Shown in pieces: positions 6,816 through 63,940 of a DNA stretch of 64,000 nucleotides. The stretch is from an uncultured Bacteroidales bacterium. Lineage in GTDB: Bacteria; Bacteroidota; Bacteroidia; Bacteroidales; Bacteroidaceae. Positions within the stretch are counted from its first letter, which is position 1; every line of letters begins with the position of its first letter. The position numbers were made by a program, and so were the translations under genes. The stretch is taken from positions 62,001 through 126,000 of the forward strand of contig CADCIP010000003.1 of the NCBI GenBank assembly GCA_902801485.1, written 5' to 3'. The notes under the pieces were generated by a model that did no database searches, was not told the origin of the DNA, and saw only the letters and a program-made list of their open reading frames with translations.

Positions 6816-8105
6816 ATGTACTACCCTTACGCCCGTCCACTCTATGTAATGGCTAAGGCTGCAGGACCGCTCTGCAACCTCAGGTGCCAATATTGCTATT
6901 ATCTGGAGAAACAGCATCTAGCCCCCTCCCTCAATCCCTCCCCCGAGGAGGAGGGAAGTGTTACGGATAAAAGCCTCCCTCCTCGGGAAGGCATGAGAGG
7001 GGCTATGAGCGACAGCCTTTTAGAGTCCTACGTTCGCGACTACATACAACTGCAGCAGACACCCGAAGTGCTCTTTACCTGGCACGGAGGAGAGCCCATG
7101 TTGCGTCCGCTGAGTTTCTACAAGCAGGCCGTCCGCTATCAGCAATACTATGGGCGCGGCAGGCAAATAAGTAACAGCATACAGACCAACGGCACATTGC
7201 TGACGCCTGAATGGTGCCGGTTCCTGCACGACGAAGGCTGGCTCGTCGGACTCAGTATCGACGGAACAAAAGAGATGCACGATGCCTATCGCGTGGATGC
7301 CAAGGGGGAAGGAACCTGGCAAAGGGTCGTTGATGCTATCCACATGTTGCAGGACTATGGGGTGGAATGGAACGCTATGGCAACGGTCAACCACGCCAAT
7401 GTCTCTCAGCCTTTAGCATTTTATACATTCTTCCGCGACGAGCTGCATTGCCAGTTCCTGCAACTGAGTCCTGTGGTGGAGAGAATCCGACACCATTCCG
7501 ACGGTCGTCATCTGGCTCAGCTTTTCGATGAGAACTGCGCCATTGCTCCCTATAGCGTTAAGCCTGCCGAATGGGGAAAGTTCCTCTGCGATATCTTCGA
7601 CGAATGGGTTCGGCACGATGTGGGCGAAATGTTCGTGAATGTCTTTGATGCCACTCTTGCCGGTTGGATGGGTGTGGCACCAGGCATTTGTGTCTATGCC
7701 GAGGAATGCGGTCATGCTGTTGTCATGGAGCATAACGGCGATGTGTACAGTTGCGACCATTTTGTCTTTCCGCAATATCGGTTGGGTAATATCCTTACCG
7801 ACGGACTGCCGCAAATGGTATATGGTGAGAAGCAGACCGCTTTCAGCCGCCTCAAGAAAGATTCCCTTCCCCGCCAATGCCGCGAGTGCGAATGGCTGAA
7901 AGCCTGTCATGGCGAATGTCCGCGCCTTCGTTTTCTGCATACAGCCGATGGCGAGCCTGGCCTCAACTACCTCTGTGCCGGCTACAAGATTTTCTTCCAG
8001 TACGTTGCGCCCTACATGGATTTCATGCGCAACGAGCTCTTAGCCGGTCGCCCCGCCAGCGGGGTGATGACGTTTACGGACTTTGCAAGCAGAATTAAAA
8101 GTTAA
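6816..8105 (+). CDS. Radical SAM/SPASM enzyme, anaerobic sulfatase-maturase type
   Basis: The [4Fe-4S]-SAM motif is Cys20-x3-Cys24-x2-Cys27 (GPLCNLRCQYCYYLEK), followed by TWHGGEPMLRP, SIQTNGTLL and LSIDGTKEMHD, and SPASM-type cysteines near the C-terminus (CRECEWLKACHGECPR). This pattern is that of anSME, which converts an active-site Cys or Ser of sulfatases to formylglycine without oxygen. Residues about 35-63 are an insertion encoded by a GC-rich palindromic element (6921-7004), directly after the cluster motif, where the family normally runs straight from YYLEK into a MSDxLLE helix. No sulfatase gene is in the window, so another radical SAM peptide modification is possible. The next gene starts 15 nt downstream. 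Confidence 0.85.
   Translation: MYYPYARPLYVMAKAAGPLCNLRCQYCYYLEKQHLAPSLNPSPEEEGSVTDKSLPPREGMRGAMSDSLLESYVRDYIQLQQTPEVLFTWHGGEPMLRPLSFYKQAVRYQQYYGRGRQISNSIQTNGTLLTPEWCRFLHDEGWLVGLSIDGTKEMHDAYRVDAKGEGTWQRVVDAIHMLQDYGVEWNAMATVNHANVSQPLAFYTFFRDELHCQFLQLSPVVERIRHHSDGRHLAQLFDENCAIAPYSVKPAEWGKFLCDIFDEWVRHDVGEMFVNVFDATLAGWMGVAPGICVYAEECGHAVVMEHNGDVYSCDHFVFPQYRLGNILTDGLPQMVYGEKQTAFSRLKKDSLPRQCRECEWLKACHGECPRLRFLHTADGEPGLNYLCAGYKIFFQYVAPYMDFMRNELLAGRPASGVMTFTDFASRIKS
6921..7004 (+). repeat. GC-rich palindromic element inside the maturase gene
   Basis: An in-frame insertion with two palindromic halves. Its first 38 bases (6921-6958) match 62627-62664 inside rpoN with a single difference. It encodes a PSPEEEGS stretch and a PPREGMRG stretch. 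Confidence 0.85.
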
Positions 8106-8120
8106 CAAAAAAAACATACA

Positions 8121-10287: not shown

Positions 10288-10317
10288 CAGCGTAAAATGT
10301 TATAAAAGCTCAGAATT

Positions 10318-14702: not shown

Positions 14703-16592
14703 ATGAAATTCTCAATTCTCAATTCTCAATTCTCAATTCGAAAAGCAGTGGGCTTACTGCTTTTCGCAGCAGTAAGCGCAGTTTGGGCACAACCTCGCCC
14801 AGAGTATCCACGTCCCCAGTTCGAGCGTCAGGACTGGGTCAACCTGAACGGCCAATGGAGCTACACGTTCGATTTCGTAGGCTCCGGAGTAGAAAGACGG
14901 TTTTACGAGAGCAAAGGCTTCGACGGAAAGATTACCGTTCCCTTTGCCCCCGAGAGCAAGCTTTCGGGTGTAGAGTATACCGACTTCATCAACAACATCT
15001 GGTATCACCGTCAGATTCAGATGCCTGCAGGATGGGCAGGACGTAACATCATGCTCAACTTCCAGGCTGTCTATTACAACTCCGAGGTATATGTGGACGG
15101 ACGTCTGGCCGGTCGTCACTTTGGCGGCAGCACAGGCTTTGCCATCGATGTCACCCGTTTCCTGAAGGACGGCAAGGCACACGATCTTGTCGTTCATGCC
15201 TACTCCGATACCCGCACCACCAAGCAGCCCGCAGGCAAGCAGAACGTCCGTCAGAGTCAGTTCGAATGTATGTACACACGTACCACAGGCATCTGGCAGA
15301 CCGTTTGGATGGAACCCGTTGATGCCAAGGGACTGAAGAATGCGCAGGTCATTACCGATATCGACCAGAAGCAGGTCATCGTACACCCCCACTTCTATGC
15401 TCAGGACGGCGGCACCATAACCGTAACCCTCAAGGACGGTGCCAAGGTGGTAGCAACCAAGAGCGCCGTTGCCACCGATGCCTCCACACTCATTCTGCCC
15501 GTCAAGGCACCCAAGCTGTGGAGCCCCGAGAGTCCCTTCCTTTACGACCTCACCTACGAGGTGCGCGATGCACAGGGTAACATCGTGGATAAGGTGGCTT
15601 CTTATATCGGCATGCGCAAGTTCCATTGCAGCGGCAACAAGACATATCTCAACAACGAACCCTTCTACCAGCGTCTGGTACTCGACCAGGGTTTCTATCC
15701 CGACGGTATCTGGACGGCTCCCTCCGACGAGGCCCTCCGTCGCGACATCGAGCTTTCTATGGCTGCCGGCTTCAACGGTGCCCGTCTGCACCAGAAGGTC
15801 TTCGAAGAGCGTTTCCACTATTGGGCCGACAAACTGGGTTACATCACTTGGGGCGAGGCTCCTTCGTGGGGTATGAATGCCAACGACCCCGAGGTGGCAC
15901 GTAACTTCACCTCCGAGTGGACCGAGGAGATTGTTCGCGACCGCAACCATCCCAGCATCGTAATCTGGACACCCATGAACGAAGAGTGGTGGCCCGACCG
16001 CGTGCAGTTCCCCCGCTTCGTTTCCGACCTGTACGACCTTACCAAGCAGCTCGACCCCACCCGTCCCTTCCACGATGTCAGCGGCGGTGCGCATGTCAAG
16101 ACCGACATCTGGTCGACCCACAACTACGAGCAAGACCCCAAGCGCCTGCAGGAGATTATCTATAGCAACGGCAAGTGGTTCCAGGCACCTCACGACCCCA
16201 TAGATATCTATCGCACCAATACCGGCTTCAACCGTCCTACTGATGTCAACCGTTACGACTATCCGCTCTATACCGAGCCCACCATGCCTTATATCCTGGA
16301 CGAGTTTGGCGGCATCAAGTGGGTAAAGGGGCAGGATAAGGCTACAGGAAACAGCAACGCCTCTTGGGGTTATGGCGAGCCGCCTCACTCCTTGGAGGAG
16401 TTCTACGCCCGTCTGGAGGGTCAGGTCGATGCCCTGATGAATATCTCCGACCAAGTCTGGGGGTACTGCTTCACGCAGCTCACGGATGTAGAGCAGGAGC
16501 AGAACGGCGTCTATTTCTACGACCGCACCTCCAAGTTCGATATGAACCGCATAAAAGCTATATTTTCGAAGAAACCAACGAATAGTAAATAG
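14703..16592 (+). CDS. Secreted GH2-family beta-glycosidase
   Basis: From the ATG at 14703 the protein is 629 residues with a signal peptide ending SAVWAQ. Its N-terminal sugar-binding domain has DWVNLNGQWSYTFDF and NIWYHRQIQMP, followed by an immunoglobulin-like domain and a TIM barrel. The acid/base is probably the Glu of MNEEWWPD (about residue 427) and the nucleophile the Glu of ILDEFGGIKW (about 534). GH2 covers beta-galactosidase, beta-mannosidase and beta-glucuronidase activities; the specificity is not clear here. Codons 3-12 are built from four CTCAATT heptamers, so the signal-peptide frame depends on repeat copy number. The upstream ATG at 14679 is an alternative start in the same frame. 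Confidence 0.87.
   Translation: MKFSILNSQFSIRKAVGLLLFAAVSAVWAQPRPEYPRPQFERQDWVNLNGQWSYTFDFVGSGVERRFYESKGFDGKITVPFAPESKLSGVEYTDFINNIWYHRQIQMPAGWAGRNIMLNFQAVYYNSEVYVDGRLAGRHFGGSTGFAIDVTRFLKDGKAHDLVVHAYSDTRTTKQPAGKQNVRQSQFECMYTRTTGIWQTVWMEPVDAKGLKNAQVITDIDQKQVIVHPHFYAQDGGTITVTLKDGAKVVATKSAVATDASTLILPVKAPKLWSPESPFLYDLTYEVRDAQGNIVDKVASYIGMRKFHCSGNKTYLNNEPFYQRLVLDQGFYPDGIWTAPSDEALRRDIELSMAAGFNGARLHQKVFEERFHYWADKLGYITWGEAPSWGMNANDPEVARNFTSEWTEEIVRDRNHPSIVIWTPMNEEWWPDRVQFPRFVSDLYDLTKQLDPTRPFHDVSGGAHVKTDIWSTHNYEQDPKRLQEIIYSNGKWFQAPHDPIDIYRTNTGFNRPTDVNRYDYPLYTEPTMPYILDEFGGIKWVKGQDKATGNSNASWGYGEPPHSLEEFYARLEGQVDALMNISDQVWGYCFTQLTDVEQEQNGVYFYDRTSKFDMNRIKAIFSKKPTNSK
14711..14738 (+). repeat. CTCAATT heptamer x4 inside GH2 signal-peptide codons
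   Basis: Four perfect tandem 7-bp units lie immediately after the ATG at 14703 and encode the FSILNSQFSI segment. Copy-number change by one or two would shift the reading frame. Confidence 0.88.
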
Positions 16593-16681
16593 ACCCCCCA
16601 CCCCCTTTAGGGGGAATCTGAAATGATATGAAAATAATAAATAAACTTTCCTTACTCCCCCTAAAGGGGGTATGGGGGGTC
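16591..16681 (+). repeat. Long GC-rich inverted repeat spanning GH2 stop and GH92 start
   Basis: Left arm 16591-16614 and right arm 16656-16681 are reverse complements apart from a 2-nt insertion in the right arm. The left arm begins in the GH2 stop codon, and the right arm lies within codons 10-18 of the second GH92 gene. The 41-nt centre is AT-rich and carries the GH92 ATG at 16628. Confidence 0.9.
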
Positions 16682-18799
16682 TTTCTATTTGCGGCTCTTA
16701 CCGCAACGGCTAAAGACCTTACCCAATACTGTAATCCCTTCCTCGGCACCGCCACCTTGTGGACACCCGACGAACTGGGATACACCCGCACCGAAGTGAA
16801 ACGTGCCTGGGGAGCCGAGACCTTCCCCGGTGCCGCTATGCCCAATGCTATGGTCCAGTGCACACCCGTCACCATGTATCACAGCGGCAGCGGCTATCAG
16901 TACGAAGACCATCAGATCTATGGCTTCGCCCATTCCGCCAAGGGCCATTGGGACCAGCTGCATATACCCATGCTGCCCGTAACGGGCCGCTTCTATCCCT
17001 ACAACTACTGCTCGTGGTTCAGTCACGAGCAGGAAGAGGCCCATCCCGGCTACTATAGCGTCTTCCTGCAGCGATACAACGTAAAGGCCGAGCTTACCGC
17101 CACCCTGCGTTGTGCCTACCACCGCTATACCTTCCGTCCCGAGGACGAGAAGCGCCTCTTGGTGGATATCACCAAGAACAACGGTCGTCCGCGCCGATGG
17201 GACATCCGCAAGTCCACCGCCGCCAATGCCTTCGAGGGCTATCAGGACGGCCACGGCCGTATGTACTTCTATGCCACCGCTAACTTGCCGGTAAAGAGCG
17301 TCCAATTAGAGACCGCCAAGAAGCAGACCATCGCCATAGTGGATTTCGAGAACAACAAGGGCGCAGCACCCCTCGAACTGAAGATAGGCTTCAGCTTCGT
17401 CAGCATCGAGAATGCCAGGGAGAACCTCGAGGCAGAGATGGCTGCCAAGGGTTTTGCCGATGTATATAAAGCAGCCGATGAGACTTGGGAGAAGATCTTC
17501 TCGCATATTCAGGTAGAAGGCGGCACTGAACGGCAGAAAGGCCTTCTCTACAGCACCCTCTATCGTGCCTTTCTGTGGCCTGTCTTGCGCAGCGATGTCA
17601 ACGGCGAGTATCTGGATTCCCGCAACCAGGTGGTCAAGGGCGACTTCCGCTACTATACCGACCCCTCCTTCTGGGACACCTATCGCAACAAGTTGCAGCT
17701 CTTGGCCATGATAACGCCCGATGTGGCTTGCGACATTGTCAAGTCCTGCATGGACCGAGGCGAAAAGCGCGGCGGCTATATGCCCACCTTCTTCCACGGC
17801 GACCATGCCTGCACAATGGTTTGCGGCATGTGGCAGCGCGGCATACAGGGATTCGACCTCGAGCGTGCCTATCGTCTCATCCTCAAGAACGCCACCGTTC
17901 CCGGTCGTGGCGGCAGACCTTATTTAGACGAATACATCCAGCGCGGATGGATAGCCGAGAAGGACACCACCGATGTGCCTACCGAGGACGAGTACAAGGC
18001 TGCCGTAACCAAGACGCAGGAATATGCCTACGACGACTATGTGGTGGCTCAGGTAGCCAAGATTTTAGGCGACAAGCAGAACTACAAGCTGCTGATGCAG
18101 CGCAGCGGCAACTACAAGAACCTCTTCGACCCCAGTACGGGCTTCTGGCGAGGCAAGATCGAGAGCGGCGAGTGGATCAGGGATTTCGACCCCTACTATC
18201 CCTATTATGCTTATATGTATCGCGAGGCCAATGCATGGCAGAGCCTCTTCTTTGCGCCTCACGACCCCGAAGGCATGATAGCCCTCTATCCCAGCCATCA
18301 GGCCGTAGAGCAGAAGCTCGACAGCCTCTTCACCGAACCTTGGCGAGGCTACGAGGCTTGGAACATGACGGGCTTCATGGGTAACTACTGTCATGGCAAC
18401 CAGCCCGACCACAGTGTCCCCTATACATATTATTTTATAGGCAAGCAGGAGAAGGCCCAGCGCATCCTCAACGAGCTGATGGACAAGTATTACGATATGG
18501 GAGCCGACCACTTGGCATACGCCGGAATGGATGATGCCGGCGAGACTTCCTCTTGGTACGTCTTTAATGCCATCGGTCTTTACACCTATTCTCCTGCCGA
18601 CCCTCAGTATATCGTCACCGTTCCCCTCTTCCCCAAGGTAACCTTTACGATGGGCGACGGACGTAGTGTGGTAATCCGCAGGGAAGGCAATGGCGAGAAG
18701 ATTCGGCAGATCCGCTGCGGTACCAAGCCCCTGAAAGGCTGGTTCCTTAACCATAATGATATGCTGAAATCAGGAGAGGTTACGATTGTAACCGAGTAA
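16628..18799 (+). CDS. Secreted GH92 exo-alpha-mannosidase (second copy)
   Basis: The 723-residue protein is a divergent paralogue of the GH92 at 12268. Conserved features: YCNPFLGTATLW at the N-terminus, GAETFPGAAMPNAMVQCTPVTMY, HSAKGHWDQLHIPMLP, VEGGTERQKGLLYSTLYRAF, FWDTYRNKLQLLAMITP, GNYCHGNQPDHSVPYTYYF and GMDDAGETSSWYVFNAIGLYTYSP. The signal peptide (about 1-26) includes LPLKGVWGV, encoded by one arm of a GC-rich palindromic element, so the element contributes to the export signal. It starts 35 nt after the GH2 gene and ends in a strong hairpin terminator, so it closes the glycosidase run. Confidence 0.92.
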   Translation: MKIINKLSLLPLKGVWGVFLFAALTATAKDLTQYCNPFLGTATLWTPDELGYTRTEVKRAWGAETFPGAAMPNAMVQCTPVTMYHSGSGYQYEDHQIYGFAHSAKGHWDQLHIPMLPVTGRFYPYNYCSWFSHEQEEAHPGYYSVFLQRYNVKAELTATLRCAYHRYTFRPEDEKRLLVDITKNNGRPRRWDIRKSTAANAFEGYQDGHGRMYFYATANLPVKSVQLETAKKQTIAIVDFENNKGAAPLELKIGFSFVSIENARENLEAEMAAKGFADVYKAADETWEKIFSHIQVEGGTERQKGLLYSTLYRAFLWPVLRSDVNGEYLDSRNQVVKGDFRYYTDPSFWDTYRNKLQLLAMITPDVACDIVKSCMDRGEKRGGYMPTFFHGDHACTMVCGMWQRGIQGFDLERAYRLILKNATVPGRGGRPYLDEYIQRGWIAEKDTTDVPTEDEYKAAVTKTQEYAYDDYVVAQVAKILGDKQNYKLLMQRSGNYKNLFDPSTGFWRGKIESGEWIRDFDPYYPYYAYMYREANAWQSLFFAPHDPEGMIALYPSHQAVEQKLDSLFTEPWRGYEAWNMTGFMGNYCHGNQPDHSVPYTYYFIGKQEKAQRILNELMDKYYDMGADHLAYAGMDDAGETSSWYVFNAIGLYTYSPADPQYIVTVPLFPKVTFTMGDGRSVVIRREGNGEKIRQIRCGTKPLKGWFLNHNDMLKSGEVTIVTE

Positions 18800-25823: not shown

Positions 25824-27881
25824 TTAACATTTCACCTTAATCGTTTCTCCTGGCTTGATGGTGTAAGTTCTGATGGTACTGAGTTCCTTCTGTATTTTTA
25901 CGGAGAGCTTGCCGTTTGTGGTGCGTTCCACCAGAATATTGATGGGTGTATCTGTGCAGGCATTGACGCGGTAGAGGCTGTACTCGTTCCACTCTGAGGG
26001 CATCTGAGGCGTTAGGGTGAAGCTGCGGAAGCCTGTGGGACGGAAGCCCAGCAAACCCTCGGTGATGATGCGGCAATAGAGGCCGCTCTCGGCTGACAGA
26101 TGACGCAAGCCGCCCTCTGGCCAAGCCTCCACCACATAGGGAACATGCTCGCCTAAAAGACGGATATTAGAGAACTTCTTCAGGTATTCCAGCGCTTTAT
26201 CGGCATAGCCTGCCGCAAAGGCTCCACGGAAACCGTAGAGGGTAGAACGGTCCCAGAATATCTTGTCGCCACTCTGCGAGAGCATTCCGTTCTCTGTCCA
26301 CAGCTGGGGCGAGAACATCGCCTCGAGGGTTCCTTCGGCTCTGTCGTAAATGCCCATCGTGAGGGGAATACAGATCCAGGAGCGCAGCACATCGTTGCCC
26401 TCGTAATAACGATAGGTATCGTAGCCCTCCACCGATGCGTGGAAGAATTTATCGATGTTCTGGCGTAATGTTTTTGCCTGCTTCCGATAATTTTTTATTA
26501 AGGATTGAGAATTATGATTTTTGGGGAAAGCTCCCTCCCATTTGGGGGAGGGCAAGGGAGAGGGGCCTAACTCCTCCAACAGGTAAGCTGCGCTGATGAG
26601 TGCATCGTAGTAAAGGCTGCTGGTGCAGAGGTTGGCATCACCTGCGGGCAGTCGGCCCTCCAACTCGTCGGCATCGCTGGCAACTACGCCATGCTGGTTG
26701 AGCTTGCGATGGCAATATTCCAGGCACCATTCTATCAGCGGCCATACTTCCCGGGCAATCTCCTTGTCACCCCGTTCCAGACAATACCGGCTGGCTCCGT
26801 AGGCCAGCATAGCAGCATCGCCGCGGTCGAAGGGACCAAACACATCATCCCCTCCGCAGATAATGCTCCAAGGCAGGAACTTATATTCGGGATTCAGGAG
26901 TTTCAGGTAACAGCGCCAAGTAGTCATCGCACTCTCGTTACCATCCTGGTAACCAAGGAAGGGAAAAAAGGGATTTACGTACTCCGCCTGATCGTTGCAC
27001 CACATGGCTGCATAGTATGATTCGCCTCCGGGAGCGTGCATCAGTCCGTTCTGCGTTTCGAAGATACTCTCGCTGGCGCGAATCTTACTCATCTGGAAGA
27101 GGGTTTGGATGGTTTTGTCGGGACAAGTGAATTGCAGGTTGTTATCGGCAACCTTCGTCACAAACATCTGACGCCACTCCAGTTCTTTATCACCTTCCAT
27201 AATGGGGGCCTTCTCGTCCGACAAAGAAAAGGCCTCGATATAGCAATAGAAGGAGGTACTTTCTCCTGCTTCCAACGTTTTCTTGAAATCTTCTACGAAG
27301 TCTGTGTGGGCTTTCAATACGTATTTTCCTCGCGTGCCATCCTCCTGATTGGTGGTACGTATAAAGTAAACAGAAGGCACACGCACAGTTTCATTCTTAT
27401 TACCCACGTTTTTGATGGTATATTTCTCGCATACACCAGCTTTTTGGGTGCTGGGGAAGAACTGGCGCGTCAGCTCAAACTCGTTGCCGTCACCCTTAAT
27501 GGTGCTATGGACATTCAGAACGCCGTCTATGGTAACCGTCTTTACTTCCTCCTGAGTCATATAACGGTTGTTGGCCGTCATTCCCTTCAGGAAATCCATA
27601 TCGCAGCGGGGCATCCAGCTGGCGTGCGTGTTATTAGGAATGGTTCTGAGCATAGGAAACACCAGATGGCGGTCCATCTGGAACTGCTTCTTTTCGTTCA
27701 CACCCCAGTAATAAACCACCGAGGCACGATGGCCCGACATCTCTATATGGTCGGTATAGGGCAGTTCACCCTTCGACGTTTCCCACTGAACGGAATGAGG
27801 TCCGTTGATACTCCATCTGTTTTCCTTTGCCTGAATAGTCAGAGCACAGAGAAAAGAAATAAAAAAGAGAAAATGTTTCAT
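25824..27881 (-). CDS. Secreted six-hairpin ((alpha/alpha)6) glycosidase-like protein
   Basis: From the ATG at 27881 (alternative 27902) the protein has 685 residues and signal peptide MKHFLFFISFLCALTIQA. The N-terminal half is beta-rich; the C-terminal half has the helical-toroid pattern: MSKIRASESIFETQNGLMHAPGGESYYAAMWCNDQAEY, DADELEGRLPAGDANLC, YGFRGAFAAGYADKALEYL and VVEAWPEGGLRHLSAESGLYCRIITEGLLG, with acidic residues suited to catalysis. It may be a glycosidase related to six-hairpin families such as GH78 or GH65; the specific family is not certain. A roughly 25-residue insertion (PSPLPSPKWEGAFPKNHNS) in the toroid is encoded by a GC-rich palindromic element at 26522-26568. Confidence 0.65.
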   Translation of the reverse strand: MKHFLFFISFLCALTIQAKENRWSINGPHSVQWETSKGELPYTDHIEMSGHRASVVYYWGVNEKKQFQMDRHLVFPMLRTIPNNTHASWMPRCDMDFLKGMTANNRYMTQEEVKTVTIDGVLNVHSTIKGDGNEFELTRQFFPSTQKAGVCEKYTIKNVGNKNETVRVPSVYFIRTTNQEDGTRGKYVLKAHTDFVEDFKKTLEAGESTSFYCYIEAFSLSDEKAPIMEGDKELEWRQMFVTKVADNNLQFTCPDKTIQTLFQMSKIRASESIFETQNGLMHAPGGESYYAAMWCNDQAEYVNPFFPFLGYQDGNESAMTTWRCYLKLLNPEYKFLPWSIICGGDDVFGPFDRGDAAMLAYGASRYCLERGDKEIAREVWPLIEWCLEYCHRKLNQHGVVASDADELEGRLPAGDANLCTSSLYYDALISAAYLLEELGPSPLPSPKWEGAFPKNHNSQSLIKNYRKQAKTLRQNIDKFFHASVEGYDTYRYYEGNDVLRSWICIPLTMGIYDRAEGTLEAMFSPQLWTENGMLSQSGDKIFWDRSTLYGFRGAFAAGYADKALEYLKKFSNIRLLGEHVPYVVEAWPEGGLRHLSAESGLYCRIITEGLLGFRPTGFRSFTLTPQMPSEWNEYSLYRVNACTDTPINILVERTTNGKLSVKIQKELSTIRTYTIKPGETIKVKC
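26522..26568 (+). repeat. GC-rich palindromic element inside the six-hairpin glycosidase gene
   Basis: The segment ctccctcccatttgggggag is an imperfect palindrome and is followed by ggcaagggagaggggcc; in frame in the host gene, encoding a Pro/Ser/Gly-rich loop. Confidence 0.8.
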
Positions 27882-34115: not shown

Positions 34116-34186
34116 GACCCCCTCTAACTCCCCCTTTATGGGGAGAAATAAAAAGCCCCTCCATAAAGGGAGGGGTTTGGGAAGGG
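34116..34186 (+). repeat. GC-rich palindromic element between KefB-type and reductase genes
   Basis: gaccccctctaactccccc with catggggagaa, then ccctccataaagggaggggtt, forms a long imperfect inverted repeat with AT-rich loop; also a plausible transcript-end hairpin for both convergent genes. Confidence 0.7.
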
Positions 34187-34188
34187 TC

Positions 34189-37451: not shown

Positions 37452-38795
37452 TCAGTTAAAATTGACAGGTGTCTGGACAGCAGCAGTTGTAAGAACTAAT
37501 TCATAGTTATTGAAAGAGCGACGCAGTTCCACTTTCTTCAGAATAGAACATGATTTCTTTGTAAGTATTTGAATATCATGAATATAATTATAATAATTAT
37601 TATTATACAATAATACTGCGGTTTGTTTGACGGGTAATATAATTAATGTTTTATTATTAATATTTTTAATTACGTTGATACCGTTTGTCTCATCCTTTAT
37701 AACTGTTCCATCGGGTATATTCACAATGAAGATCTCACCATCATTTGATATTTTTACCAGAGCCTCTTCTGGGATATCAGCAATTATGTCGTCAGCAGGT
37801 AGGATGTTCTCGTTTTCTGTAACAGCAATACTTTCTACTTTTGGTTTGGCAAAGGCAACAACGGCTAATGCCATCAGTACGGGCAGGACAACGGCTTTGG
37901 TCATCATCCAGCGATTGGAATTTTTCTTGTGCATCATTTTAATTCGCTTTTTTAGTGAATGGTGACTCAGATTGTTGCCAAGGGTCTGCAGTCGATTGCC
38001 AACGGCCTTTGTCACGAGTAAAAGTTGATATGTCTTTGCATCGATGCCTTGATTAAGTACAGCGTTGTCCGCCTCGTATTCGTGAACAGCTTTCAGGTCG
38101 CGTTCCAGCAGATAGACAAAGGGGTTGAACCACTGAATGGCTTTCACTACCTCAAGGAGTAGCAGCTCCCAGGAGTGACCCAGGCGGATGTGAGCCTGTT
38201 CGTGAGCCAGGATGGGCTTGCGCAGTCGCTCGTAATCCGATACGCTGATAATTATATAATGTAAGAAACTATAGGGCGGAAACTCACCACCATGTATCAC
38301 TATGGTATTCCCTTCTTTATCTTTGGTACTTGTACCACCCTTCGTCTCCCTCCAGAAACGGAACAGCTGGAAAAGGAAGAATCCAATGGAAGCTAATACA
38401 CCAGCTAAATAAACAGCCTCACCCCCAACCCCTCTCCAAAGGGCGAGGGGAGATAGGTCTATTGTTGTAATGATATCTGTTTCGGAAACTTCCTGTTCAT
38501 AATTCCCTTCTTCCATATTACTCCCCCCTTTCATGGGTGAGGTGCTAAGGGAGTTCCCCTCATCCATATTACTCCCCTCTCCCTTTGGGGAGGAGTTGGG
38601 GGTGAGGCTGGAGATTGTGAGGAAGCCGGGTTTGTCCATTGTCAGTTGTACGGCTGGCAGTACCAGCGACACTACCATAATACTCAGCAATGCCAAGCGG
38701 TTGAACCTGTGAAACGTCTCGCGGCTCAACAGCAAAGCAAACCCTCCGTATAGGAGCGCCAGTAACAAAGCAGATTTTAGCAAGTATATCATCAT
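37452..38795 (-). CDS. M56/BlaR1-type sensor metalloprotease
   Basis: From ATG 38795 (or 38792) the 447-residue protein has an N-terminal membrane region (MIYLLKSALLLALLYGGFAL), the zinc motif HEQAH in LAHEQAHIRLGHSWELLLLE, and YEADNAVLNQGIDAKTYQLLL, as in BlaR1/MecR1 M56 peptidases. Upstream of HEQAH, palindromic elements insert low-complexity Ser/Pro/Gly/Glu segments (SSPKGEGSNMDEGN, TSPMKGGSNMEEGN, PLALWRGVGGEA). The C-terminal sensor region has no penicillin-binding domain; its ligand is unknown. The longer frame upstream (to 38858) is repeat-derived. Preceded by its BlaI-type repressor gene. Confidence 0.82.
   Translation of the reverse strand: MMIYLLKSALLLALLYGGFALLLSRETFHRFNRLALLSIMVVSLVLPAVQLTMDKPGFLTISSLTPNSSPKGEGSNMDEGNSLSTSPMKGGSNMEEGNYEQEVSETDIITTIDLSPLALWRGVGGEAVYLAGVLASIGFFLFQLFRFWRETKGGTSTKDKEGNTIVIHGGEFPPYSFLHYIIISVSDYERLRKPILAHEQAHIRLGHSWELLLLEVVKAIQWFNPFVYLLERDLKAVHEYEADNAVLNQGIDAKTYQLLLVTKAVGNRLQTLGNNLSHHSLKKRIKMMHKKNSNRWMMTKAVVLPVLMALAVVAFAKPKVESIAVTENENILPADDIIADIPEEALVKISNDGEIFIVNIPDGTVIKDETNGINVIKNINNKTLIILPVKQTAVLLYNNNYYNYIHDIQILTKKSCSILKKVELRRSFNNYELVLTTAAVQTPVNFN
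38411..38620 (+). repeat. Cluster of GC-rich palindromic elements inside the M56 gene
   Basis: Three elements within about 200 bases (around 38420-38455, 38521-38555 and 38570-38615) are in frame and separated by short unique codons; they encode Pro/Ser/Gly/Glu-rich spacer. Confidence 0.78.
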
Positions 38796-39324: not shown

Positions 39325-39729
39325 TGTGTTTATCATATCGGCTTGGAAAATGAACATAAAAAGAAAAGCTAAACACCCCTATTTTTAACATTTGTATTTA
39401 GTTCAATCAGAACCATTATTAGTTGTTAACACTTTTTGCCCCCTCTTTAGGCTTAAAACACCCCCGAAATGTACTTTTTACTAAGATTTTTTGCCGAAAA
39501 CAAATAAAAGCCATAACTTAGCCCACCAAAATGTAATAAAGTTTAGAGTTGATAGTTTAGAGTTGATAGTTTAGAGTTGATAGTTTAGGGTGATGTGTAG
39601 AACATACGTCTAGCAGCCAAGGGCTGCGATAACTCCTGAACGAAACGAAGTGGAGTGATAACTTCTGAGCGTTAGCGATAACTTCTTTAACTCCTAAGTG
39701 AAACGATAACTCCTTTAATAAATAAAAAA
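39325..39729. other. Gene-free stretch between BlaI and the hydrolase pair
   Basis: About 400 bases without a gene. It contains 7/14-bp repeats (agtttagagttgat x3, 39541-39590) and a mixed block of gataact words (39628-39719) leading to the hydrolase ATG. No -7 element was identified with confidence for the hydrolase. Confidence 0.55.
39541..39590 (+). repeat. 14-bp (2x7) tandem repeat agtttag/agttgat x3
   Basis: Three tandem copies of agtttagagttgat followed by agtttaggg. Confidence 0.85.
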
Positions 39730-41041: not shown

Positions 41042-42370
41042 ATGAAATATAAAATGCTGAAAATAAATTCTTTCCGCCTCTCTCTTCTCTCCTCCTTGCG
41101 GGGGAGCTGGAGGGAGGTCTTTTTCTTCTTCTCGATGGTTTTTGCCCTTTCTGTGCAAGCTCAGGAGGGAATTTGGTCGGGCGAACTCGAAGCCCAGGGT
41201 ATCAAGCTTCCTCTCTTCTTTAACTTCACCGCCGATGGCTGCACCCTCGATTCTCCCTCACAGGGCGTGAAGGGATTAAAGGCCGAAAAAAGCTATACCG
41301 ACGATGGTAAACTCAAAGTCACTATCCCTTCCATAAATGCATCTTACGAGGGCGTTTACGCTTTGATCGTTATCTCCGGCAACTATACCCAGAACGGATT
41401 CTCCTTCCCCCTTACCCTCAAGGGCGTTACTCGTCCGCAGACTCCTAAGGGTCCCTTCCCTTATAAGACCGAAGAGGTGAAGTTCCGGAACGGAGACTTT
41501 ATCTTCAACGGCACTTTGGCGCTGCCCGAAAACTGCACAGCACAGACACCCGTGGTACTCTTTGTCACGGGAAGCGGACAGCAGGACCGCGATGAAAACA
41601 TGTTTTTTGAGCATAAACCCTTTGCCGTTATTGCCGATGCCCTTGCTCGTAACGGCATAGCTTCCTTACGATATGAAGATCGCGGCTACGGCGATTCAAC
41701 CGTTCATTTCCTCAACTACAATACTCACGATTTCAAGGATGATGCCGCAGCAGGTCTCTCTTTCCTCCGCAAGCGCTTCCAAAAGGTGGGTATTATCGGC
41801 CATTCCGAGGGTGGTACCATAGCCCTTATGCTCGCAGCCGAAGGCAAGACCGACTTTATTGTTTCTCTTGCAGGTATGGTCGTTTCAGGAAAGGAAACCC
41901 TCCTGTGGCAGAACCGCGTTAGCTTAGAGGCATCTGGTCTTCCCAAAGAAGTTATCGACCAGTATATAAACGTCATCAGCAACCTCTTCGATAAAGCTAT
42001 CGAGGGAAAACTGGAAAGTATCGATTTCTCCTTGGCTCCCGATGCTCTGAAGCCCGCGCTCCAACAGAGCATCAAGCAGTTCTCTATGCCTTATTATCAG
42101 CACATCCTAGCGGTTGATGTCCGTCCTCTGTTGCCACAGATCAAGTGTCCCGTGCTTGCCCTCAACGGAAAGAAAGACACACAGGTCAACTATCAGCCTA
42201 ATTTAGAGGCATTGGACAAGGGTCTCACAGCTAAGCATCAAACGGTGGCACTGGATAATCTCAACCACCTCTTCCAGCACTGCACCACTGGCAACCTCAT
42301 GGAGTACCAGCAGATAGAGGAAACCTTTGCTCCTGAAGCCCTCCAGCAAATTCTGGAATGGATTAAATAA
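41042..42370 (+). CDS. Secreted alpha/beta hydrolase (active copy)
   Basis: The 442-residue paralogue of the preceding gene keeps the active site: nucleophile Ser255 in GHSEGG (codon 41804-41806), GSGQQDRDE as oxyanion region and NHLFQH as the likely His region. It belongs to the S9/dienelactone-hydrolase-like group of secreted Bacteroidetes hydrolases; an esterase or acyl-peptidase role is possible. Its signal peptide is longer than the paralogue's: the segment SFRLSLLSSLRGSWREV between the basic start and VFALSVQAQEG is encoded by a palindromic element (about 41073-41123), an insertion into the export signal. Confidence 0.87.
   Translation: MKYKMLKINSFRLSLLSSLRGSWREVFFFFSMVFALSVQAQEGIWSGELEAQGIKLPLFFNFTADGCTLDSPSQGVKGLKAEKSYTDDGKLKVTIPSINASYEGVYALIVISGNYTQNGFSFPLTLKGVTRPQTPKGPFPYKTEEVKFRNGDFIFNGTLALPENCTAQTPVVLFVTGSGQQDRDENMFFEHKPFAVIADALARNGIASLRYEDRGYGDSTVHFLNYNTHDFKDDAAAGLSFLRKRFQKVGIIGHSEGGTIALMLAAEGKTDFIVSLAGMVVSGKETLLWQNRVSLEASGLPKEVIDQYINVISNLFDKAIEGKLESIDFSLAPDALKPALQQSIKQFSMPYYQHILAVDVRPLLPQIKCPVLALNGKKDTQVNYQPNLEALDKGLTAKHQTVALDNLNHLFQHCTTGNLMEYQQIEETFAPEALQQILEWIK
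41073..41123 (+). repeat. GC-rich element in the hydrolase signal peptide
   Basis: cctctctcttctctcctcc then ttgcgggggagctggagggagg: a palindrome-like pair present in this hydrolase and absent from the paralogue 1.3 kb upstream. Confidence 0.75.
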
Positions 42371-49049: not shown

Positions 49050-49071
49050 CACTCGCAAATTAAAAATACTC

Positions 49072-49107
49072 GTTATACCGTTATACCGTTATGACGTCAT
49101 AACGAAA
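49072..49107 (+). repeat. cgttatac repeat and GTTATGACGTCATAAC palindrome upstream of the four-helix-bundle gene
   Basis: Two or more 8-bp units run into the perfect 16-bp palindrome GTTATGACGTCATAAC, about 15 nt before the ATG. Related words recur after the gene at 49868-49990. Confidence 0.8.
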
Positions 49108-49123
49108 AAAAGAATAAAGAACA

Positions 49124-49864
49124 ATGGAAATAAAACGATTCGGATATTTCTGGCTGGACACTTGGGTGATGGCTAATGTGATTCAACTGGCGACACAGGA
49201 TTTCTGCACTCGCTTCCTGAACCATACCAATGACCCTTGTGGGCGTCAGTTCGACCAGATGACGCAGGCAGCACGTTCGGCACCAGCAAACATCGCAGAG
49301 GGCAATTCGCGCCACTCCACATCTAAGGAGACAGAGATGAAGCTGACGGATGTGGCCCGTGCAACGCTCTCAGAACTGGCGAATGATTATCTGAATTGGT
49401 TGCTCCGGCACGAGCAGGCTCCTTGGTCTATACATTCTTCAGAGTATGCGCAGGTATCGAGGATACCATTGGAAAAGCCTTGTTACGAGGAAGATGTGCA
49501 GCACCAGAGCAGCCTGCATATCCTGAAGCAGAAGCATCGCTTTGACACTTGGTTGCAGCAGGATGATTCCATCATCGTTGCCAACTGCATTCTGGTGCTT
49601 TGCAACCGTCTGATCATGATGATTAGCCGTCAGTTAGAGAACCAGCTGGCAACATTCCGTGTGGAGGGCGGATTCACGGAAGCCCTGACAGCAGAACGAC
49701 TGGCCCATCGCACAGAGAAGAGCCGCCAAGCCGATGCACCGCTCTGCCCCATCTGTGGCAAGCCCATGATAAAGCGTATGGCCAAGAAAGGCATCAATTC
49801 AGGCAAAGAGTTCTGGAGCTGCAGCAACTATCCCGAATGCAACGGCACAAGGAAAATCCAATAA
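49124..49864 (+). CDS. Four-helix-bundle protein with C-terminal topoisomerase-type zinc finger
   Basis: The 246-residue protein has an N-terminal four-helix bundle of the IVS/S23 type (QLATQDFCTRFLNHTNDPCGRQFDQMTQAARSAPANIAEGNSRHSTSKETEMKLTDVARATLSELANDYLN, about 20-90), a middle helical region, and a C-terminal C4 zinc finger, CPICGKPMIKRMAKKGINSGKEFWSCSNYPECNGT (two C-x2/5-C pairs), as found at the end of topoisomerase I. The bundle usually occurs alone; the fusion to a nucleic-acid-binding finger is unusual. It could bind RNA or DNA. It sits between palindrome-rich repeats on both sides (see findings). Confidence 0.78.
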   Translation: MEIKRFGYFWLDTWVMANVIQLATQDFCTRFLNHTNDPCGRQFDQMTQAARSAPANIAEGNSRHSTSKETEMKLTDVARATLSELANDYLNWLLRHEQAPWSIHSSEYAQVSRIPLEKPCYEEDVQHQSSLHILKQKHRFDTWLQQDDSIIVANCILVLCNRLIMMISRQLENQLATFRVEGGFTEALTAERLAHRTEKSRQADAPLCPICGKPMIKRMAKKGINSGKEFWSCSNYPECNGTRKIQ

Positions 49865-49867
49865 AAC

Positions 49868-49990
49868 GCCGTCATATAGAATCGTTATAACGTTATACCG
49901 TAATACCGTCATAACGAAGCCACCATCGAAATAACGATATAACGAAGCCATATCGCCGTTATAACGATATAACGTTATGACGTGATAACG
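49868..49990 (+). repeat. Palindrome-rich gttat/ataac repeat block after the four-helix-bundle gene
   Basis: Dense inverted repeats such as cgttataacgttat, cgatataacgaagcc (x2) and cgttatgacgtgataacg fill the gap to the primase terminator. Confidence 0.75.
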
Positions 49991-50031
49991 ACCTTTCAAA
50001 TTTTAACTGTGAATTGTGAAACTGTGAAAAT

Positions 50032-57164: not shown

Positions 57165-57215
57165 TTCTTGGCTCTCCCCTCTCCTCGGAGAGGGGTTGGG
57201 GGTGAGGCTACTCCC
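57165..57215 (+). repeat. GC-rich palindromic element after the XRE gene
   Basis: cccctctcctcggagagggg followed by ttgggggtgaggc; overlaps the last codons of the XRE gene. Same sequence type as 59043-59078 and 62681-62715. Confidence 0.85.
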
Positions 57216-58228: not shown

Positions 58229-58265
58229 TCCCATCGCCCACGGGAGAGGGGTTAGGGGTGAGGCT
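58229..58265 (+). repeat. GC-rich palindromic element between DUF2975 copies two and three
   Basis: gttcccatcgcccacgggag with aggggttaggggtgaggc; same second half as the 59043 element. Confidence 0.8.
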
Positions 58266-59042: not shown

Positions 59043-59078
59043 AGTTCCCCTCTCCTCGGAGAGGGGTTAGGGGTGAGG
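59043..59078 (+). repeat. GC-rich palindromic element between DUF2975 copies one and two
   Basis: cccctctcctcggagagggg then ttaggggtgaggc; matches 57165-57215 with one change over about 33 bases. Confidence 0.85.
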
Positions 59079-59084
59079 CTGTTC

Positions 59085-59810: not shown

Positions 59811-61547
59811 CTAACGTTTATGCACATTTATTTTCAGCAGGTTGTTCTTACGGCAGGCTTCCTTGGCTATGTGCTCCAGCTGGCTGAATTCCTTGCCGGA
59901 GGAGTAGATGTGGATGACGGTAGGCTCGTATTTGTACTGGCTGAGCGTTTCCATCAGTTCCTTGGGATTTACCTGTCTGTAAATATCCTCCCCCTTTTTC
60001 TTGAGGTATAGCTTGTTGTCGTGGATTCCTATACTTACATCTTTTTTTTCATGCCCTACTCTCCTGTACTCTATATAATTCTTGAAGCGGCCGTTCCTGA
60101 TGCCGTCGGCAATGGAGTAGTCCATACCTGCGTAAGTCCACATATACTGGTATAGGATGCAGCCTTCCTCGTCCTTATGCTTGCGGTTATAGTCGGCTAT
60201 TGCAGCATAATAAGCCTTATCGCCTGCGCCTTGCAGGTCTATCGCTTTCTGCCTTTCCTTCAAATAGAACTCCTTGAATGCTGCCCAGTCGCGATAGAAT
60301 TTGCTGCCGCTGACGTTAAAGTCTTCAAATTTTGTACCATAGATTTCCATATTGCAGGTCTCGCCAGGCACGAAGAATATTTCCTGAAACTGGTCTCCTA
60401 ATGTGCCGTCTTTAAGGACAGCTTTCAGCATTCCGGAATAGGGTTGGTCAAAGTCTTCCGAGAACTCGAATTTCCCGTCCTTGACATATACGGAATCTAT
60501 GGGGTCGGGGTGTACGTTGTCTGTATAATCCCATATATAAACAAGGTAGTGGTCAACATTCAGTTCTTTGGGAACTGTTCCTTTCAGCGTAAAGGTATTG
60601 CTGGCGGCGTTGACTTTCTGTTCTATCAGCTCGCTGGCTGACTGGAACTCGGAGGTAGCAAAGGCGCTGAGGGCCAGTGCAATCATGGGGAGGACGTACA
60701 GCACCAGGCTGCGACGGCTCCGAGGGGGTGTTGTCTTTAGCATCATACTGATTCTTTTTTTGGTTAGACTGTGATTAAAATTATTAGCAAAGGTATAGGT
60801 GCTGGCGCCAACAGCCTTCCTTATGATCAGTTCGGAATAGGAATGGGCGGAAATGCCCGACAGGAGGACGTAGTCGTCTGCCTCGTACTCGTGTACGTCG
60901 CGCAGATAGATGCCTAACAGATAGACGAAGGGATTCCACCACTGGATGGTTTCTACAAGGGTCAAGAGGATGATGTCCAGGGAGTGACGGCAGAGGATGT
61001 GAGCCTTCTCGTGCAGGATAATCTCGCGTCCGCTCTCAGCATAGTCCTGCTCGCTGATTACAATGCTTCGCAGCCAGCTGAAGGGTGCCACATGCTGGGC
61101 ATGACAATAGATGCGGATGCCGTCGGAATCGTCCTTCGTCCAGATGCTGCCCCTGCGGATGATGCGTCCCATGGAAAGTACCTCGCGCAGACGGATGCCC
61201 AGAATGGTCATTGCTCCGATGGCATATAGGATGCTTACGACGTAGAACCAAGGAAAAGGTTTTTCTGCCCCTTCTCCTTGAGAGAGGGCTGGGGTGTGGC
61301 TTGGCATCTCGACCGGCACTCCCATCTCCAGCAAACCTTTCTCCAAAGTCTGAACAGCCGTCATGTTGTCCATCGAGATATACGAGAAGTTGCACAGGGG
61401 CAACACCAGGCACAGCAGCAGGATGGCCAACAGGGTAAAGCGGTTGAAACGGAACATCTTCTCCCTGAAAATCAGGAAAATACCAGGCACAAACAGCAAT
61501 GTGAGCAGTATGGCCGATTTGATTGCGTAGATTAAGAGTTGTGACAT
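59811..61547 (-). CDS. M56 sensor with DUF4369-like and ExbD-like C-terminal regions
   Basis: From ATG 61547 (MSQLLIYAIKSAILLTLLFVPGIFLIF) the 578-residue protein has membrane segments, the HEKAH zinc motif in ILHEKAHILCRHSLDII, and YEADDYVLLSGISAHSYSELII, as in BlaR1-like M56 proteases. A second part, beginning about residue 280, is a DUF4369-like domain (TFTLKGTVPKELNVDHYLVYIWDYTDN...IDSVYVKDGKFEF) as found in the TlpA-like proteins here. The last 90 residues (VSIGIHDNKLYLKKKGEDIYRQVNPKELMETLSQYKYEPTVIHIYSSGKEFSQLEHIAKEACRKNNLLKINVHKR) look like an ExbD-type periplasmic domain. A palindromic element lies at 61262-61300 near the domain junction. Preceded by its BlaI-type gene. Confidence 0.8.
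   Translation of the reverse strand: MSQLLIYAIKSAILLTLLFVPGIFLIFREKMFRFNRFTLLAILLLCLVLPLCNFSYISMDNMTAVQTLEKGLLEMGVPVEMPSHTPALSQGEGAEKPFPWFYVVSILYAIGAMTILGIRLREVLSMGRIIRRGSIWTKDDSDGIRIYCHAQHVAPFSWLRSIVISEQDYAESGREIILHEKAHILCRHSLDIILLTLVETIQWWNPFVYLLGIYLRDVHEYEADDYVLLSGISAHSYSELIIRKAVGASTYTFANNFNHSLTKKRISMMLKTTPPRSRRSLVLYVLPMIALALSAFATSEFQSASELIEQKVNAASNTFTLKGTVPKELNVDHYLVYIWDYTDNVHPDPIDSVYVKDGKFEFSEDFDQPYSGMLKAVLKDGTLGDQFQEIFFVPGETCNMEIYGTKFEDFNVSGSKFYRDWAAFKEFYLKERQKAIDLQGAGDKAYYAAIADYNRKHKDEEGCILYQYMWTYAGMDYSIADGIRNGRFKNYIEYRRVGHEKKDVSIGIHDNKLYLKKKGEDIYRQVNPKELMETLSQYKYEPTVIHIYSSGKEFSQLEHIAKEACRKNNLLKINVHKR
61262..61300 (+). repeat. GC-rich palindromic element inside the M56 gene
   Basis: gccccttctccttgagagag with ggctggggtgtggc; it encodes a Pro/Ser/Gly-rich segment (TPALSQGEGAEK) in the M56 protein. 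Confidence 0.7.
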
Positions 61548-61549
61548 AA

Positions 61550-61760
61550 GCCCCTCCGTCCTTCCCCTCCGTCGCGAATGGGGATTCGCTCCCCTTTGTG
61601 GGGCCGTAGCCACATTTAGTGGCTCCTCTAAAGACCCCAGTCGCCCCTTGGGGGAATGATTAATTGATAAGCCCCCCTCCAACTCCCCCCGAGGAGGGAG
61701 TGTTCTTATTAGTTGATATTTGGCCCTCCTCCTCGGGGGAGGGTTGGGAGGGGGCTTCCA
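61550..61760 (+). repeat. Cluster of GC-rich palindromic elements between and within BlaI and M56 genes
   Basis: Several palindromes in 200 bases; the part at 61723-61756 is the reverse complement of the element type seen at 6921 and 62627. It encodes the last residues of the BlaI-type protein and fills the gap to the M56 ATG. Confidence 0.8.
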
Positions 61761-62136: not shown

Positions 62137-62160
62137 ATCGCGTTTCGTTTGTTTCTGCTG

Positions 62161-62168
62161 CAAAATTA
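62161..62168 (-). promoter_or_regulatory. -7 promoter element of the second BlaI/M56 operon
   Basis: TAATTTTG on the minus strand, 25 nt before the ATG at 62136, which excludes the longer frame starting at 62217. Confidence 0.5.
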
Positions 62169-62270
62169 AGTGCGAAGGGAAAGCAAAGCCTAAAAAGAAG
62201 CAGAAAAACTTCTCCAATCCGTCAGAATTTAACCTTTATTAATAGAAATACCCAAGGTGCTATCGTCTTT

Positions 62271-62387
62271 AACTTCTCTAACTTCCTTAACTTCTTTAAC
62301 TTCCTTAACTTCTTTAACTTCTCTAACTTCTTTAACTTCTCTAACTTCTTTAACTTCTCTAACTTCTCTAACTTCTTTAACTTCTTT
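62271..62387 (+). repeat. 9-bp tandem repeat AACTTCTNT x13 upstream of rpoN
   Basis: Thirteen tandem 9-bp units, alternating aacttctct, aacttcttt and aacttcctt, lie between the divergent BlaI and rpoN genes and end about 25 nt before the rpoN -33 box. The frame through it is a repeat artefact. Confidence 0.9.
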
Positions 62388-62411
62388 CTAAAAAAAAGTA
62401 GCCATACAAAG

Positions 62412-62441
62412 TTGTTGGCTCATTTTTTCTTTGTACTTTTG
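62412..62441 (+). promoter_or_regulatory. rpoN promoter
   Basis: TTG at 62412-62414 and TACTTTTG at 62434-62441, 19 nt apart; the ATG follows 8 nt later, so the mRNA leader must be almost absent. Confidence 0.6.
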
Positions 62442-62449
62442 CATTAGAT

Positions 62450-63940
62450 ATGGCAAAAAACAACAAACAGACACAGGAACAGGTTCAGGTACAGACCGAG
62501 CAGCAGGTGCAGGTGCAGACACTTACGCCCCAACAGGTGATGCTGGTTCGGCTGACCGAAATGCCCATAGAGGCCCTGCAGCAACGCATAGACAATGAGT
62601 GTCTGGAGAATCCCTGGCTGGAGAAAGCCCCCTCCCTCGATCCCTCCCCCGAGGAGGAGGGAAGCTGGGCGGCAGAAGGTCCCCTCTCCTCGGAGAGGGG
62701 GGAAGGGGGTGAGGCCTCCTACGACTACCGAAGCGAGGACGATATTCCCGACTATATGCTACGCTCAAGCTACACCAAGAACACGCCCGAGAATGTGGAG
62801 TACGAAGATACCCTTACGTTCTACGACAAGCTGAAGGCACAGATGACCGACTTCGACCTGACGGAGCGCCAGCAGCAGCTGTTGGAATACCTGATAGGCG
62901 AACTGGACGGTAACGGCCTGTTGGGGAAGCCCTTGATACAGATAGTTGATGAAGCCGAGATATACCAGGGCATAGAGACAACGGAGAAGGAAATGCTGGG
63001 TGTGCTGGCTATCCTGCAACAGTTCGAGCCTGCCGGCGTGGGAGCCCGCTCGCTACAGGAATGTCTTATCCTACAGATAAAACGCGATGAGAAGAACCCT
63101 TGTCAGCGCCTGATGCTGCAGGTGATGGAGAAATACTACGATGATTTCCTGCATAAGCGTTGGGCCGACATACAGCGCCGGTTGAAACTCTCGGCTATCC
63201 AGCTGGAGGAACTGAAACGCGAGATTAAACGCCTGAACCCAAGGCCCGGCTCGTCTGTCGGAGAGAAGAGCGTGCTGATAGGTCATCAGATTCTGCCCGA
63301 CTTCATAGTAGAGGCCGACGAGGACGGTCATATCACCATGCAGCTGAACGGCGGGAGTCCTTCGTCGCTGGTAATCAGTCCGGATGCCACGGAGATGCTT
63401 CAGACCTACGAGAACATGCAGGGACAGCAGTTGAGCAAGGCCGTTCAGGAAGAAATAAGGTTTACGCGCGAATACGTGGAGCGTGGCCGTATCTTCATAG
63501 ATGCCCTGGCACAGCGTCGGGAGAGTATGATAAAGACCATGAACGCCATCATAAAACTGCAACGCCCCTTCTTCCTGGATGGCGACGATACATTGCTGAA
63601 ACCCATGAAGCTGGAGGATGTTGCCAATCTGGCCGGTTACGATATCAGCACCGTGAGCCGTGTGTGCAACAGCAAGTATGTGCAGACGCCTTTCGGCATC
63701 TACTCCCTGAAGCATTTCTTTACCCATAAGGCAGTGCAGAAGGACGATGCAGAAGTTGCCACCTCGAAGCAGGTGATGTCTGTTATACAGGAGCTGATAG
63801 AAGGCGAGGACAAACAGAATCCGCTGAGCGACGAGAAACTGGCCGTTCTGCTGAAACAGAAGGGGTTCGACATTGCCCGCCGTACGATAGCCAAATACCG
63901 TGAGTTTATGAAGATACCCATAGCCCGCATGCGTAAATAA
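62450..63940 (+). CDS. rpoN: RNA polymerase sigma-54 factor
   Basis: The 496-residue protein is sigma-54: a glutamine-rich region I (EQQVQVQTLTPQQVMLVRLTEMPIEALQQRIDNECLENPWLE), an acidic region II, a core-binding domain, and the RpoN box in FDIARRTIAKYREFMKIPIARMRK at the C-terminus, which recognises -24 promoters. Residues about 60-93 are encoded by two palindromic elements (62627-62728) inserted between regions I and II, where the family is naturally variable. Start is the ATG at 62450, 8 nt behind the -7 element. Sigma-54 needs activator ATPases, none of which are in the window. Confidence 0.95.
   Translation: MAKNNKQTQEQVQVQTEQQVQVQTLTPQQVMLVRLTEMPIEALQQRIDNECLENPWLEKAPSLDPSPEEEGSWAAEGPLSSERGEGGEASYDYRSEDDIPDYMLRSSYTKNTPENVEYEDTLTFYDKLKAQMTDFDLTERQQQLLEYLIGELDGNGLLGKPLIQIVDEAEIYQGIETTEKEMLGVLAILQQFEPAGVGARSLQECLILQIKRDEKNPCQRLMLQVMEKYYDDFLHKRWADIQRRLKLSAIQLEELKREIKRLNPRPGSSVGEKSVLIGHQILPDFIVEADEDGHITMQLNGGSPSSLVISPDATEMLQTYENMQGQQLSKAVQEEIRFTREYVERGRIFIDALAQRRESMIKTMNAIIKLQRPFFLDGDDTLLKPMKLEDVANLAGYDISTVSRVCNSKYVQTPFGIYSLKHFFTHKAVQKDDAEVATSKQVMSVIQELIEGEDKQNPLSDEKLAVLLKQKGFDIARRTIAKYREFMKIPIARMRK
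62627..62728 (+). repeat. Two GC-rich palindromic elements inside rpoN
   Basis: 62627-62664 matches the maturase element at 6921-6958 with one change; 62680-62715 matches the 57165 and 59043 type. Together they encode PSPEEEGS and GPLSSERGEGGEA in region I/II of sigma-54. Confidence 0.88.

Follow-up and report, generated by a model that had tools for sequence, protein, structure and literature searches.

How do short GC-rich palindromes come to lie in frame inside unrelated protein genes of one bacterium? The question is raised by a 64,000-nt stretch, hereafter the window, of an uncultured rumen bacterium of the Bacteroidales (Bacteroidaceae; GenBank assembly GCA_902801485.1, contig CADCIP010000003.1, here C3:62001-126000). 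The source genome is a metagenome-assembled genome (MAG) of 3.6 Mb in 85 contigs, 85% complete. An earlier note on the window had described one class of dispersed palindromes that lie in frame within at least eight genes, add loops rich in Pro, Ser, Gly and Glu, and recall the Rickettsia palindromic elements (RPEs). We found a GC-rich hairpin segment at each of the eight positions or a few bases away from it, always inside an open reading frame (ORF), and the general description holds. The single class does not: the repeats in the window are of at least three types. The units of the main type are probably copies of a non-autonomous mobile palindrome, similar to the repetitive extragenic palindromes (REPs) and the REP doublets forming hairpins (REPINs); they would be translated where they lie, and selection would retain the copies that leave the frame open.

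The consensus of the main unit, (A)GCCTCACCCCYRACCCCTCTCC-loop-GGAGAGGGGA[AG], is about 33-38 nt long and was collected from 58 matches listed in the window and in twenty other stretches of the source genome; the family is larger than had been noted before. The unit has two parts: a conserved tag, (A)GCCTCACCCCYRA, and after it a hairpin whose arms are CCCCTCTCC and GGAGAGGGG. With up to two mismatches, the unit head matched the source genome 63 times and a reversed-pattern control once, and GCCTCACCCCCNACCCCTCTCC matched 56 times against once for its reversed pattern. Among 45 strict units of the source genome, the loop between the 9-nt arms measured 2 nt in 22 and 4 nt in 19; the bases preceding GCC were CA or AA in 35, and those following the stem were AA or AG in 36. 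These 45 units do not show the unpaired GTAG or CGTC tetranucleotide that known REPs have at the hairpin base, and Rfam gave no match in the window at gathering thresholds.

The occurrence of the unit is patchy. A match was present in 32 of 151 genomes of the same family, with counts from 1 to 95. An exact scan of named genomes returned at least 115 stretches, and 112 of those listed have Bacteroidota titles; the listed matches include cultured Prevotella, Hoylesella, Bacteroides and Flavobacterium (among the isolates Prevotella veroralis, P. vespertina, Hoylesella shahii, and Bacteroides fluxus). A further 64 matching stretches came from IMG/VR contigs, which are putatively viral. In 55 of these putative viral copies, with loops of at least 8 nt, the stem extends inward by a mean of 1.6 pairs, against 0.23 in shuffled loops. 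In one 43.5-kb putative viral contig, IMGVR_UViG_3300020057_000061, the listed stretches (L169, L170, L174, L177, L185, L191, L197, L210, L213, and L227) yield 26 exact matches, partly in tandem, and near-identical contigs occur in other samples.

Outside the viral contigs, the units form inverted doublets with the tags outward, as REPINs do. Between strict units less than 500 bp apart, all 48 inverted neighbours were tag-outward (8 in the source genome, 28 in the named genomes, and 12 in the genomes G188, G050, G132, and G096) and none were tag-inward; the loci of the close relative G190 belong to the named set, so that two or more pairs enter both the source and the named count. Direct neighbours within this distance numbered 11 (1, 5, and 5, respectively). 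A bias is also seen in the reading frame. By eye, all three sense frames of the consensus unit are open, and the sense units deep in ORFs are read in the frame SLTPNPSP in 17 of 19 cases in the source genome (p = 6e-7) and in 37 of 42 in the named genomes (p = 3e-13), and in none of five in the G188 set. Lone intragenic units were sense rather than antisense in 11 versus 3 cases in the source genome and in 23 versus 12 in the named ones.

Of the 45 strict units, 28 lay inside ORFs of at least 200 aa, a fraction that is not a genome-wide rate, because the stretches outside the window were picked for unit presence, and that depends on a criterion (inside an ORF) which itself selects open frames. 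With a stricter depth rule, 28 of 44 units were deep in ORFs and 33.8 were expected at random; in these sampled stretches the share of units within genes is only slightly below what random placement predicts. The corresponding counts were 76 of 167 against 119.8 expected in the named genomes, and 9 of 45 against 32.1 in the G188 set. The extragenic location typical of REPINs was thus nearly attained in the latter, with only nine units deep in ORFs, and was not found in the source genome.

The hosts include the enzymes DapF (diaminopimelate epimerase), DapL (LL-diaminopimelate aminotransferase), GltB and GltD (the large and small subunits of glutamate synthase), AsnB (asparagine synthase B), the CarA part of a CarA-CarB ORF, and a UxaA-like dehydratase. 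Units also occur in histidine kinases, an NtrC-type regulator, a beta-galactosidase, and a GH127 enzyme. Outside the inserts, pN/pS (the ratio of nonsynonymous to synonymous change) was 0.14, pooled over seven host genes with insert limits set by hand, which indicates that the hosts are under purifying selection. In residue alignments to solved homologues, the inserts were extra loops between conserved blocks in GltD, GltB, CarA, AsnB, DapL, DapF, and the sulfatase maturase of the window; the insert in AsnB amounts to 17 residues relative to 1ct9. GltB carries at least seven units in frame and was aligned with ten relatives (G005 and G016 only in part; an eleventh, L081, did not align). The inserts occupy the same few loops in the source genome, G190, and G015, and have an altered form in G003, G010, and G016, the last with an insert of its own near residue 918. 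They are absent from G007, whose genome has no head match, from the aligned part of G005, whose genome has four, and from G032, G035, and G026. In GltB, the one gene examined for this, the segment varies among congeners instead of recurring at the same place in distant species. Judged from these alignments, the inserts are in-frame additions to unrelated protein genes that are absent from homologues, as in RPEs.

Two near-identical copies in the window had been taken as a sign of recent dispersal. They lie at 6921..6958 (+, with the variant head AGCCCCCTCCCTCAATCCC...), inside the gene of an anaerobic sulfatase maturase (6816..8105, +), and at 62627..62664 (+), inside rpoN (sigma-54; 62450..63940, +). 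We confirmed that they differ at one of 38 positions; both are also present in G190, so they are older than the split between the two genomes. Each has an inverted partner: 6974..7004 (-), paired by eye, gives with its neighbour the coding segment APSLNPSPEEEGSVTDKSLPPREGMRGA, and 62680..62715 (-) gives APSLDPSPEEEGSWAAEGPLSSERGEGGEAS. Comparison with homologues shows an insertion at both sites. In the maturase the extra residues stand a few positions past the CxxxCxxC motif (compared with 4k36), and in rpoN the segment falls in an acidic linker where 25 aligned relatives have other sequence or gaps (29 loci were fetched and four failed to align). At a third of the eight sites, in BlaI, the units form a C-terminal tail beyond the Pfam domain; insertion at all eight is not supported.

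The close relative G190 (loci L066 and L067; L127 carries the same isolate name, sheep-rumen MAG RGIG6899) shares with the source genome many long stretches that are 90-99% identical, and has 63 head matches of its own. Of 68 sites in the source genome, 28 could be compared, both of their flanks being present in the G190 DNA retrieved; the other 40 had no counterpart there. The length was equal at 15 of the 28 and different at 13. These 13 rows represent 11 events, since gltD and a uxaA-like pair each account for two rows. Five of the events are in coding sequence and five lie outside genes; the eleventh (L022_1818, 1 nt) was unclassified and left out of the tally. The reverse comparison added an event of 108 nt in a kinase gene, and one row that was not orthologous (L347_1597, 88 nt, with a 36-nt flank match) was dropped. 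The coding differences were 102 nt (gltD), 66 and 18 nt (uxaA-like), 96 nt (asnB), and 3 and 108 nt (one histidine kinase), all six of them multiples of three. Those outside genes were 59, 78, 52, 64, and 2 nt, and one of the five was a multiple of three (Fisher p = 0.015). At the 96-nt difference in AsnB, G190 has a copy of a second repeat family, of about 110 nt, nested in the unit.

In the mechanism that we favour, the source of new copies would be an inverted doublet moved in trans, most likely by a single-strand transposase (HUH/Y1, similar to the REP-associated tyrosine transposases, RAYTs). Selection would remove the insertions that break a frame, and the surviving copies would stay in tolerant loops, be translated, and slowly decay. 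The source genome has two PF01797 matches, one of them in a Y1 family whose members share a conserved extension at the C-terminus; further members occur in the genome. Four Y1-transposase-like paralogues were seen: L021 3859-5118 (on C3, 7 kb upstream of the window) and others on C36, C37, and C27. The extension of the C3 paralogue has no confident Pfam match, and the 500-bp flanks of the four have no 12-mer in common. Co-occurrence was counted in 80 of the 151 genomes, namely all 32 positives and 48 chosen zeros, many from the same genera. The extended family was present in 22 of the 32 element-positive and 10 of the 48 element-negative genomes (p = 2.4e-5, with kinship ignored); canonical Y1_Tnp (PF01797) was not associated (13/32 versus 17/48, p = 0.65). 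We regard the extended family as a lead only.

Several results weigh against a mobile palindrome. The unit head was absent from the Y1 loci scanned (L001, L002, L232-L261, L262-L295, L309, and L310), so the search for a mobilising gene that had been proposed earlier came back empty there; the nearest unit to the C3 Y1 gene is 2.8 kb off, and the extended family is missing from G140, G154, and G188, three of the ten richest genomes. A Y1 transposase as the proven mobiliser was rejected on these grounds. At none of the six aligned sites was G190 cleanly empty. At one site its uxaA-like gene retains TGAGGCT, the end of the unit, so a deletion in G190 is possible there; at gltD and at the other uxaA-like site it has a different filler, which at the latter is a simple repeat. 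Compensatory covariation of the stem arms was not found, and variant arms fit their own partner no better, and mostly worse, than the consensus arm. The putative viral contigs break the pairing rule (2 tag-outward, 0 tag-inward, and 20 direct neighbours within 250 bp) and lack the frame preference (8 of 19 sense units). The pairs 3966/4121 and 7275/7472 in GltB of L003 enclose native enzyme sequence, as do units in an ORF of L071 (DapF by likeness to DapF of the source genome). The insertion of a single doublet does not fit these pairs, because native coding sequence lies between the arms, and this is the main point that a mobile doublet leaves unexplained. The preference of sense copies for one frame is not explained by it either.

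Some of these points would be met by an origin without a transposase, in which GC-rich hairpins spread locally through template switching during replication, with recombination or gene conversion between copies. It would also account for the inverted neighbours around native coding sequence in GltB and DapF, for a uxaA-like coding loop that is a palindrome pair in the source genome and a simple repeat in G190, for gltD and the site at 57172, where the two genomes differ over a patch around the element too, and for the lack of a linked transposase at the Y1 loci scanned. However, template switching should yield tag-inward pairs as well, which are 0 of the 48 inverted neighbours, and a dispersal step is required to place near-identical copies 56 kb from each other in unrelated genes; we consider this origin unlikely, though by no means far-fetched. 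Another reading, to which we give a slim chance, is that the outward-facing pairs bound a cassette with a core that may come from the host gene itself, and that such segments of core enzymes are exchanged between relatives as mobile pieces.

Domestication, in which the peptide SLTPNPSPxGEG or a DNA site has a function in the cell and selection maintains it, would suit the strong frame preference of the sense copies. The synonymous differences in seven genes, 10 in 249 sites within inserts versus 526 in 3176 elsewhere, also hinted at constraint on the inserts at the nucleotide level, but this was unsupported when set against the immediate flanks: over 23 shared sites the units diverged by 5.6% and the flanks by 5.7%. 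The hosts are functionally unrelated, G007 has a GltB without inserts, and the viral copies show no frame preference, all of which makes a cellular role very unlikely. Ribosome skipping or removal from the RNA, as by byp elements or mini-introns, would sit well with hairpins inside essential genes and with inserts near conserved motifs (DapF, the sulfatase maturase). It is extremely unlikely when all six coding length differences from G190 are multiples of three and when no unit-split gene was seen in the table of the 16 units that lie outside ORFs or within 30 bp of an ORF edge (a single suspect was examined further, and it proved intact). That the units are an artefact of assembly or binning is a natural suspicion for a fragmented and incomplete MAG, but it is scarcely credible: the separate assembly G190 carries the same number of matches, over half of the compared sites are equal in length, and cultured isolates have the motif.

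Protein-coding palindromes are best documented in Rickettsia. The RPEs, including the intragenic CGTC-type repeats, resemble our units as short palindromes that occupy many unrelated protein genes in frame, and are unlike them in phylum and sequence, a distinction drawn from the descriptions in PMC3733652. Tag-outward pairs and native cores are seen in our family. Miniature inverted-repeat transposable elements (MITEs) are short and non-autonomous, with inverted ends. For our family neither a target-site duplication nor a parent insertion sequence was found: none of the six aligned sites was clean, and the search for a parent was limited to Y1 genes. According to excerpts of the REP literature, inverted doublets with the tag outside (HH) predominate in REP families (PMC3733652) and make up REPINs (PMC3116915), and intragenic REPs and RPEs are already known (PMC3733652). 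In these excerpts, REPINs and the GTAG/CGTC REPs have in common with our family the tag plus hairpin, the tag-outward doublets, spacers of 20-100 bp in most, the patchiness, and some intragenic copies. Our family lacks the GTAG or CGTC tag, and no RAYT gene flanked by copies was found at the Y1 loci scanned. REPs are there described as mostly extragenic, with some intragenic copies reported, whereas most of the sampled units of the source genome were inside genes. PARCELs, as excerpted (PMC2996958), are likewise palindromic DNA that also codes, but form tandem 25-residue amphipathic repeats, in contrast to the single enzyme loops seen here. The peptide LTPNPSP was not found in the literature searched, nor was a description of this palindrome family in Bacteroidota, in a search of titles and opening abstract lines with subscription journals largely outside it. 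Apparently new are the family itself and its phylum, the number of units borne by core enzymes, the bias towards one frame, and the native sequence enclosed by pairs.

Further copies of the main unit were found in the window. A unit at 38414..38452 (+) is antisense to the first M56 gene and has its inverted partner at 38572..38610 (-), with the tags outward and 119 nt between the arms; the second M56 gene has a degenerate unit, MPSHTPALSQGEGAEK, at 61268..61304 (-). The BlaI tail (61670..61757) contains two units, 61670-61701 (+) and 61724-61756 (-). Three units are intergenic: 57172..57209 (-) is absent from G190, where the adjoining sequence is also different, while 58231..58265 (-; L341_9469 in G190, a site matched by synteny) and 59046..59080 (-) are common to both genomes. 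By eye, the head is different at 16587-16684 and 34128-34175. The former is an inverted pair, GACCCCCCA...CCCCCTTTAGGGGG (16587..16684), whose right arm (16656-16684) falls in a GH92 signal peptide, and the latter belongs to intergenic palindromes with a variant head (34128..34188, -). A GC-rich hairpin, LGPSPLPSPKWEGAFPK, occupies 26531..26567 in the ORF of a six-hairpin glycosidase, and a degenerate palindrome at 41076..41119, in the signal peptide of a hydrolase, is a candidate insertion; the true start of both signal-peptide genes is uncertain.

The second repeat family is unrelated to the unit. Its copy in the window lies at 61551..61660 (+), part of which (61567-61643) is absent from G190, and other examples are L005 6835-6912 and L349 5963-6050. 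In the stretches of the source genome and G190 that were searched, 21 copies had a distinct context (some are mutual orthologues) and seven were in ORFs. The window also has short tandem arrays of 7-, 8-, and 9-mers (AACTCTA-, CGTTATAC-, and TTAACTTCT-like) at 62260-62394, 6778-6816, 39538-39597, and 49070-50000. The dapF-dapL-gltB-gltD region bears units in several species (L003 900-10000; L067, L071, L076, and L081; G015 C22), a pattern that would fit a hot spot or movement between lineages. At L009 4407-7403, one ORF of 998 aa joins CarA to the first half of CarB alone, and asnB comes directly after it. The unit at L012 4386 was considered as a disrupted gene and rejected, the site being the C-terminal end of a response regulator, after which a kinase gene of its own begins.

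For annotation, recurring segments like SLTPNPSPxGEG in predicted Prevotella-type proteins would be element-derived and not features of the protein families. If the cassette interpretation were true, the element family would drive a loop-by-loop remodelling of conserved enzymes. The family belongs to Bacteroidota that are partly cultured and resides in enzymes of amino-acid and nucleotide biosynthesis with solved homologues. The tolerance of proteins for selfish DNA is therefore directly testable here, since the same genus offers a homologue that lacks the insert, and polymorphism is seen among near relatives.

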